From Ruegeria sp. TM1040 (lineage in GTDB: Bacteria > Pseudomonadota > Alphaproteobacteria > Rhodobacterales > Rhodobacteraceae): 64,000 nucleotides of DNA. The translations under genes were made by a program, and so were the position numbers. The stretch is from the NCBI RefSeq assembly GCF_000014065.1, contig NC_008043.1, positions 180,001-244,000 of the forward strand. Direction: 5' to 3'. Every line of letters starts with the position of its first letter. Position 1 is the stretch's first letter. The notes beneath the pieces were generated by a model. It saw only the letters and a program-made list of their open reading frames with translations, was not told the DNA's origin and ran no database searches. Shown here one piece after another: positions 35,137 through 36,686 of this stretch.

Positions 35137-36363
35137 TCACTCCGCTGCGACGGCGTGTGGGCCGCTGTTGCGTTTGAGGGTAGAGAGATACCACTCCACA
35201 AATTGCAGGACGCCGCTCTCTTGGGTCGGGGAATAGGGCCCCGGTTCATAGGCCGGCGAGTTGATCCCCATCTGGTTGAACTCCACAACCTCGCGGTCTT
35301 CGTCATTGGTGGCAATCCAAACCTCGGTGAGCCGCTGTAGATCGTAATCCACACCTTCAACCGCGTCTTTGTGAACCAGCCATTTTGTCGTCACCTCGGT
35401 TTCCGTGGGGCTGATGGGCGTGACCCGGAACACGATCGAATGGTCCGACAGGAAGTGGTTCCAAGTGGTCGGGTAGTGGAACTTGAGCAACGAGCCCGCA
35501 TCCGCAAAGGCTGCACGGCCCAGCCAGCGACGCACGGCGGTCTTGCCGTCCATCGTGTAGCTCTCAGCGCCTTCTTTCAGGGGCATGCGCGCGACACGGA
35601 ACTGGCCATCACCGCTGAGGTGGAACCCCGAAGGCATCCCAGCCTGCTCACAGCGGTCGAAATGAGCCTGCAAATTGCTCGGGGTCTCGCCACCTTCGAT
35701 GCCCGTCACGGAGGGATCATCCGGGAAGGTCCGGCAGAGCGCGGGGTGATTGCCGCCGCAGTGGTAGCACTCGCGGTTGTTCTCCCAGACCAGCTTCCAG
35801 TTGCCGCGCTCCACGATGGAGCTTTCATGGGCGACCTTGGCGTTCGAGAGGTCATGAACCTCCAGATAGGGGCGGGCGACCTCGGCAAACCGTTCAAAAT
35901 CCGGGGCCTCATCGGCGAGACAAATATAGATCAACCCAGCAAGCTCACGGCAGTGGACCGTCTTGAGCCCATGTCTGCTCGGCTCGAAATCAGGCCCCAT
36001 ATCACGCGCCCACAGCAGACGACCGTCCAGTTCATAAGTCCACTGGTGATAGGGGCAGACGAGCTTAGGGTTGTTGCCTTTCTTCGCCTTGCAGATCACC
36101 GAGCCACGGTGACGACAAGCATTGTGGAAAGCCCGAATGACATTGTCTGCACCGCGCACGATGATCACATTGTAGTTGCCAACCTGATGGGTGACGTAGC
36201 TCCCTGGCTTGTCCAGCTCGCAGGCGGGAATGGCAAAAAGCCATTCTTTGTAAAAGATCTCCTGAAGATCGGTCTGAAACACCTCGGCATCGGTATAAAA
36301 CGCCTGATCAAGTGCATGTCCTGCGCGGTGGTTAGCGATCAGCGTGTTGATATTGCTGTGCAT
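35137..36363 (-). CDS. gbcA: Rieske-type oxygenase, glycine betaine monooxygenase-like (GbcA)
   Basis: The 408-residue protein has a Rieske [2Fe-2S] site (CRHRGSV then CPYHQW) and a C-terminal catalytic domain with the mononuclear-iron motif ([13 protein letters not shown]). It resembles glycine betaine and proline-betaine demethylases, which remove an N-methyl group as formaldehyde with O2. The ATG at 36363 follows AGGAA; an in-frame TTG six codons earlier is unlikely. It forms an operon with the reductase. Upstream are a 16-bp palindrome and a cobalamin riboswitch on the same strand, which is unexpected for this enzyme class. Betaine is the most likely substrate, but stachydrine or carnitine cannot be ruled out. 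Confidence 0.85.
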
Positions 36364-36382
36364 TTCCTGGCTCCGTGACAAA

Positions 36383-36398
36383 GTTCACACGTGTGAAC
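36383..36398. promoter_or_regulatory. 16-bp perfect palindrome in the gbcA leader
   Basis: GTTCACACGTGTGAAC is perfectly self-complementary and ends 20 bp before the gbcA start codon. It may be a repressor operator or, in RNA, a hairpin close to the ribosome site. It lies between the riboswitch and the gene. Confidence 0.6.
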
Positions 36399-36507
36399 CT
36401 TCGCCCTGTTGGTAGAGTGCAAACGGCAATGGGATCCCGTGAGGCCGCGAGGGAGGTGCCCGCGTCCTTTTCAAGATGCCCAAACCGCCGCCCGCGGTTG
36501 ACGATAT

Positions 36508-36686
36508 CTGCCGAGGCTGGTTTCCGGGCTCTGGGGGTGACCTGCTGGTCGGAGCGCAACGCCTTCCCGGGTCCTCCTCCCAGTGGCAGATGTTACGCCC
36601 GCGAATCCCATGACCGTTGCGGGGGCAGCGCCGGAATCGCACCGGCTTCCCAATTCTCCGTCCGGAAAGCCCGGACAGCACCTCGT
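36508..36686 (-). ncRNA. Cobalamin (adenosylcobalamin-type) riboswitch
   Basis: Read on the minus strand, this leader has the conserved cobalamin riboswitch blocks in order. These are a GGTGC block near 36680, GGGAAGCCGGTGCGATTCC (near 36630-36650), GCCCCCGCAACGGT (36613-36626), CCACTGGGA (36578-36586), GGGAAGGCG and the B12 box AGCCCGGAAACCAGCC (36515-36530). The spacing and order match the family. The next gene in this direction is gbcA, 145 bp away, with no gene between. Typical riboswitches of this class switch expression off when B12 is plentiful. An intrinsic terminator is not obvious after it, so control of translation is likelier. Confidence 0.92.

Follow-up and report, generated by a model that had tools for sequence, protein, structure and literature searches.

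Why should a cobalamin riboswitch stand directly before the gene of a Rieske oxygenase, i.e. before an enzyme that is B12-free? The question is raised by a locus of Ruegeria sp. TM1040 that lies within the 64,000-nucleotide stretch analysed here (contig NC_008043.1, positions 180,001 to 244,000), which we call the window and whose own numbering is used throughout.

A preliminary description of the locus had placed the riboswitch on the coding strand and named a covariance-model search as a check. The search agrees with it, as cmscan of the whole window against 4227 Rfam families gave only one match above any gathering threshold, namely to RF00174, the cobalamin riboswitch, with 109.7 bits against a gathering score of 31.5 and an E-value of 1.4e-26, spanning model positions 1-189 of 189 (Table 1). 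The span first given, 36363-36686, takes in most of the aptamer and the rest of the leader, but the aptamer begins 14 bases earlier. The aptamer lies directly before the Rieske gene, which has its ATG start codon at 36363, and the statement that no gene lies in between holds as well: the next real gene on the strand is the Rieske gene, and the only listed minus-strand ORF of at least 90 aa between them, 36681-36385 (98 aa), overlaps the aptamer and looks spurious. The genome contains six RF00174 matches, of which the one before the Rieske gene ranks fifth by score. TRAP transporter genes at 36964-40140 of the window are divergent from the riboswitch.

Table 1. Features of the riboswitch-Rieske locus (window coordinates)
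Feature	Position	Strand	Basis
Cobalamin riboswitch aptamer, subtype with the end AGCCCGGAAACCAGCC	36498..36700	-	RF00174 cmscan, full model length
Aptamer L5 region CUGCCCCCGCA	36618..36628	-	Sequence and position; L5 consensus from the accessible part of PMC10653944
P13a hairpin AACCGCGGGCGGCGGUU, CGGG at the loop complementary to L5	36483..36499	-	Directly after the aptamer
Alternative long-range helix, 5' strand, same G-rich bases as P13a	36486..36495	-	27-leader alignment
Alternative long-range helix, 3' strand UGCCGUUUGC	36419..36428	-	Sequence, 27-leader alignment
Apical hairpin with CACCUCC in the loop, possible anti-Shine-Dalgarno element (weak)	36446..36464	-	Sequence
Palindromic hairpin GGUUCACACGUGUGAAC shortly before the ribosome-binding site	36383..36399	-	Sequence
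Probable Shine-Dalgarno GGAG	36371..36374	-	Sequence
Rieske group V oxygenase (Stc2/GbcA type), identical to PDB 3n0q	35137..36363	-	Domains, structure match
Reductase partner, GbcB-like; FAD, NAD and 2Fe-2S domains	34064..35131	-	Profile matches

The Rieske protein contains the domains PF00355 (Rieske) and PF00848 (Ring_hydroxyl_A), both above cut-off, and equals PDB entry 3n0q across all 407 residues compared. The next best structures are 3vca and 4qup (668 bits), which we take to be Stc2, the stachydrine (proline betaine) demethylase of Sinorhizobium meliloti. Identity to 3vca is 69% (276 identical letters over about 399 residues), and the window protein is like Stc2 a group V Rieske oxygenase. 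In the Ensifer relative L037 (68%) the 400 bases of leader contain no riboswitch motif. GbcAB is the glycine betaine monooxygenase of Pseudomonas and Chromohalobacter, and the name 'gbcAB-like' that had been given to the two genes stands for their two-component architecture and for the best NCBIfam models, i.e. GbcA (NF058607) for the oxygenase and GbcB for the reductase. Both proteins, however, stay below the cut-offs (501.4 bits against 670, and 354 against 500), and the nearest structures besides 3n0q are 3vca and 4qup. The strict name GbcA is thus ruled out by the curated cut-off, and ten relatives from across the tree score 468-519 bits with the GbcA model, i.e. those tested are also outside the GbcA equivalog. 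Inspection by eye finds the cysteine pair next to the iron site and a non-aromatic residue where CntA has Tyr203 (positions from the accessible parts of PMC7948474 and PMC10952381); both domains, the cysteine pair and the lack of the subgroup Va aromatic are traits of group Vb (GbcA, Stc2). As far as the accessible part of PMC7948474 goes, the compound demethylated by group V Rieske enzymes of subgroup Vb is glycine betaine in the case of GbcA and BmoA and proline betaine in that of Stc2, and either compound is a possible substrate of the enzyme encoded here.

The reductase start at 35131 is our reading; the ORF list has a GTG at 35194. Beyond oxygenase and reductase, no gene cluster is found in more than 4 of 25 riboswitch-bearing loci, according to rough gene calls that missed the oxygenase itself in 3. 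The ABC transporter genes downstream (33834-29629) were considered as a part of the unit and set aside on conservation. The T. scottomollicae locus has a decarboxylase gene after the reductase, with no transporter between them. Among relatives without the riboswitch, some have genes for sarcosine oxidase subunits and an AraC-type regulator as neighbours, others a P5CR-like gene, a betaine-type ABC binding protein and Oxidored_FMN genes.

Is the pairing of riboswitch and Rieske gene more than a local arrangement? Two sets of relatives bear on this. The first consists of the best 80 of 594 relatives in named genomes, a choice by which the counts favour near kin, and in it the aptamer-end motif AGYCCGGAAACCAGCC precedes the Rieske gene at 24 of the 80 loci, in addition to the window; Rfam was run on nine of these 80 loci, i.e. 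those with a second motif match, and the other riboswitch states rest on the motif. The second set comprises 295 genomes of the family from 294 genera, a few genomes being common to both sets. Here the motif is present in 37 genomes at 38 places, as against 5 places in the reversed control (by our own count of the rows), and Rieske relatives at E <=1e-80 are found at 68 places in 64 genomes. The motif lies upstream on the same strand at 25 of these 68 places, 99-170 bases before the aligned start, and an Rfam search of the upstream stretches of 67 places and of the window returned RF00174 at exactly the same 25 and at no others. Thus, the comparison of leaders that had been proposed finds the riboswitch before 25 of the 68 Rieske genes, always on the coding strand, and it is conserved together with the Rieske gene in many genera. 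The only other genome of the window's genus among the 295 (G293) has no Rieske gene. Four plasmid copies picked for leader similarity, two of them from Tritonibacter, all carry the riboswitch. A tree of 81 proteins, of which 25 have the riboswitch and 56 lack it, requires at least six changes of state, five of them forced by starred branches, so that one gain with no subsequent loss or transfer is not enough as an explanation.

All 25 RF00174 matches before Rieske genes share one aptamer subtype, and this follows from the Rfam test, which is independent of the motif. The other five riboswitches of the genome have GGAGACC near the aptamer end, three of them with CAACTGT and CAGGAGACCTGCC; the Rieske riboswitch has CAACGGT with CCGGAAACCAGCC. 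Compared with the Rfam alignment, a CUG/CAG helix has turned into CGG/CCG and an a-u pair beside the core into U-A, two changes that look compensatory by eye, and one core G is replaced by A. We considered a new ligand class on the basis of this core change from GGAGACC to GGAAACC and do not claim it, as the other core changes look compensatory and the Rfam scores are still high. Of 13 places where the motif occurs away from a Rieske gene, seven are RF00174, five have no RF00174 match (L093, L110, L115, L118, L120), and one (L096) has no aptamer core. As a separate observation, the seven of the same subtype (L095, L097, L108, L113, L117, L191, L192) precede ORFs of about 90-100 aa; the two of these that were searched gave no Pfam match, and by eye the short ORFs look related to each other and may be a second target of the subtype.

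MetE and class I ribonucleotide reductases are textbook B12-independent enzymes under the control of cobalamin riboswitches, and it is next to these that the Rieske operon is found in several relatives. Among the best 80 of 594, a second cobalamin riboswitch is present in 7 of the 24 riboswitch-bearing loci as against 2 of the 56 others (Fisher p 0.0025, kinship ignored), and the riboswitch density of the Ruegeria genome would predict 0.46 for the 24; the counts come from a motif scan of the fetched stretch with <=1 mismatch, and Rfam confirmed all nine loci. In Labrys sp. WJW (L080) three same-strand RF00174 matches within 10.9 kb (1-172, 2908-3126 and 7670-7874) precede, in this order, metE, the large and small chains of ribonucleotide reductase, and the Rieske operon. 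The two riboswitches of Marivivens niveibacter (L021) are divergent and 120 bases apart, one serving nrdH-I-E-F and the other the Rieske operon. In two Shimia species, S. marina (L009) and S. aestuarii (L013), the operon is convergent with nrdF, nrdE and nrdI genes that follow an RF00174 element. These four loci thus have riboswitch units of the metE/nrd kind physically beside the operon. A Pelagimonas bin (L007) has nrdF at the contig end on one side of the operon, and the second riboswitch precedes DUF1636 and ABC genes in L011 and an ABC gene in L027. Both exceptions, L056 and L059, which have no riboswitch in front of the Rieske gene, come from Salipiger bermudensis, and in L059 the second riboswitch precedes a ribonucleotide reductase; neighbourhood alone is therefore no proof of regulation. 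Other cobalamin riboswitches also occur near DUF1636-type small proteins (L003, L006 and L011; the Pfam match exceeds the cut-off in the latter two and falls short of it in L003), and in L007 an RF00174 element (7347-7547) stands back to back with the Rieske one, before DUF4198 and CbiQ-type cobalt genes (4457-7253).

The metE and ribonucleotide reductase riboswitches are thus alike to the one described here in that a cobalamin aptamer precedes an enzyme needing no B12, but their targets are biosynthetic, whereas the target here would be an O2-dependent catabolic demethylase. We regard as the best reading, and as a probable one, that the element is a B12-OFF switch on an O2-dependent betaine demethylase that is kept as a B12-independent standby for the corrinoid route. 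The riboswitch would control an operon of two genes whose products form a Rieske demethylase that uses O2 and NADH and acts on glycine or proline betaine; with B12 scarce, the operon would be expressed, remove the methyl group without a corrinoid enzyme, and so stand in for the route via MttB/MtgB and a corrinoid protein. The neighbouring riboswitch-metE and riboswitch-nrd units moved this reading from fairly probable to distinctly so, and moved from evenly balanced to somewhat favoured the wider reading that betaine demethylation is a further case of a B12-dependent and a B12-independent enzyme chosen by a cobalamin riboswitch, beside methionine synthase and ribonucleotide reductase. In this wider reading, to which we incline slightly, a dedicated aptamer subtype would travel with the Rieske module, plasmids included, and the module would join a metE/nrd backup island in some genomes.

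The Ruegeria genome itself has an RF00174 element before nrdH-nrdI-nrdE (L002, G000:C3:546662-549854), on another contig than the window, and encodes the B12-dependent NrdJ, above the curated cut-off. The riboswitch before the Rieske operon can be read in another way, namely that low B12 turns on betaine demethylation in order to supply glycine, hence 5-aminolevulinate, and methyl groups for B12, so that the gene would belong with B12 synthesis. Four of the five other riboswitches of the genome do lie near periplasmic binding protein, CbtA or DUF1636-type genes (one domain match being below cut-off), and betaine feeding stimulates the production of B12 and its precursors in industrial strains, according to the accessible part of a review (PMC8123684). 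Nevertheless, the riboswitch neighbours of the operon include metE and ribonucleotide reductase, neither of which feeds B12 synthesis, the seven ORFs searched downstream of the other five riboswitches contain no sarcosine oxidase or Oxidored_FMN domain, and gene clusters of these two kinds (clusters 7, 9 and 3) are found in 0 of 25 riboswitch-bearing loci, again by rough gene calls. We thus consider supply of precursors unlikely.

A standby requires a route to stand in for, and such a route is known from a relative. In R. pomeroyi, MtgBCD removes the first methyl group of glycine betaine, and a corrinoid protein, MtgC, and MtgD are required for glycine betaine demethylation and methionine synthesis (PMC12478193, accessible part). 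According to the same accessible text, MtgBCD needs cobalamin and passes the methyl group to tetrahydrofolate. For the Rieske enzyme we expect instead a reaction that depends on O2 and NADH, with formaldehyde as a product. The MTTB and corrinoid-binding families are present in the Ruegeria genome, too, with two MTTB-family methyltransferases above cut-off and a corrinoid-binding protein in a frame of 246 codons, which has two B12-binding Pfam domains above their cut-offs but reaches only 175.7 bits with TIGR02370 against a cut-off of 215.3. The suggestion, made from the sequence at the outset, that the operon is a backup for the corrinoid route is thus in keeping with these genes, with the R. 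pomeroyi route and with the operon's place beside riboswitch-metE and riboswitch-nrd units in some relatives, but the presence of the corrinoid route is a poor predictor of the riboswitch. A strict link of presence and absence fails, as MTTB and the corrinoid protein are nearly ubiquitous (281 and 273 of the 295 genomes), and among genomes with a Rieske gene MTTB occurs in 25 of 25 with the riboswitch and in 33 of 39 without it. The mean number of MTTB copies, counted up to about five, is 3.6 with and 1.7 without riboswitch (Mann-Whitney p 1.3e-5); this difference is a hint and no more, since it does not survive correction for kinship, which leaves only two kinship-independent pairs on supported branches in a test that covered 64 of the 68 places, all but the four most distant. 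As to the activation domain of MetH, Rieske genomes that have the riboswitch (9 of 25) do not differ from those that lack it (19 of 39), and the domain is commoner in Rieske genomes than in the others (24 of 231). Several MetH frames, including the one of the Ruegeria genome (946 codons), have only about 910-970 codons. A metH-like gene lies within a few kb of the Rieske gene in L198 (3209-3760), G046, G092, G118, G191 and G252; on the Cereibacter plasmid of L198 it directly follows the operon on the opposite strand.

How might the aptamer act on the operon? The contact of L5 with L13 couples corrinoid binding to expression, as described in the accessible part of PMC10653944, and in the window L5 and the CGGG of P13a are complementary, a trait seen here as sequence complementarity alone. 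In 27 leaders the stem pairs of P13a are formed in 96.3% of the cells of the alignment. The same G-rich segment can, however, pair in a second way with a strand further downstream, and this long-range helix is paired in 91.9% of the cells, as compared with 38-68% if it is slid by 1-3 columns. Its covariation score was reached in 1 of 500 shuffles and its percentage of paired cells in 2, but the numbers of pairs with changes on both sides (1) and of further pair types (8) stay within the shuffles (as high in 424 and 234 of 500). These values come from an alignment of 27 of 46 distinct leaders, the nearer kin, with 19 left out; among related sequences such values may lie above shuffles even where there is no structure, and it was the folding of the window leader itself that first revealed the helix. 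On this alignment, P13a and the second, G-looped hairpin described below, taken together, showed no covariation beyond shuffles. The two conserved pairings of one segment exclude each other, which suggests a switch between P13a and the long-range helix. Under the standby reading, with B12 in ample supply, the aptamer would bind it, L5 would pair with CGGG in the P13a loop, the long-range helix would be kept from forming and expression would be shut.

Besides P13a, 25 of 46 leaders have a second, G-looped hairpin close to the start codon (mean of 100 shuffles 4.6, maximum 11), and by that scan 7 of the 46 have neither of the two. A possible anti-Shine-Dalgarno hairpin such as the one listed in Table 1 occurs in 19 of 45 leaders (mean of 100 shuffles 9.0, maximum 16). 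The stretch 36300-37000 contains no recognisable intrinsic terminator, which makes control of translation the likelier mode. The lack of a terminator also means that the polarity cannot be read from the sequence, which gives some room to an ON switch by which B12 would raise the demethylase. An activating corrinoid riboswitch does exist, before cobT of A. halodurans, but, in the accessible part of the same report (PMC10653944), this is the first activating case, all earlier ones being repressing, and a B12-free oxygenase has no evident reason to be induced by B12; we therefore regard an ON switch as very unlikely. The riboswitch of this particular strain might also be a relic, bypassed by a promoter further downstream or left with a broken expression platform, because the window leader lacks the G-looped hairpin and has the palindromic hairpin in that area instead. 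Against this, the core of the aptamer is intact, as are P13a and the two strands of the long-range helix, and the two Tritonibacter plasmid copies, at about 80% identity, keep the aptamer. A sigma-70-like promoter was not found in 36300-37000 either, which is weak evidence in this bacterial group. We consider a relic highly improbable.

The pair of riboswitch and Rieske gene is real and conserved, and it is apparently unreported. We found no report of a cobalamin riboswitch before a betaine or Rieske demethylase in the literature searched, which reached few subscription journals. The study of the R. pomeroyi route was published only in 2025; in its accessible text GbcAB is described as being of limited occurrence in marine bacteria, and the only mention of 'riboswitch' is in a reference title (PMC12478193). 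A 2018 survey of B12 dependence covers five B12-independent alternatives, and 'betaine' is absent from the accessible main text (PMC6461909). If the standby reading is true, B12 supply controls which demethylation route runs, and thus decides whether the methyl groups of betaine are passed into folate metabolism or, with O2 being spent, are lost as formaldehyde. The cobalamin riboswitch regulon would then have a new kind of target, and the reading would allow a simple test in cultivable marine bacteria.

Further downstream, at 27380-29620, the window contains a gene for a BetI-like TetR regulator (below cut-off) beside one for 5-guanidino-2-oxopentanoate decarboxylase, and in T. scottomollicae the latter adjoins the Rieske operon as well, with no ABC transporter genes in between.
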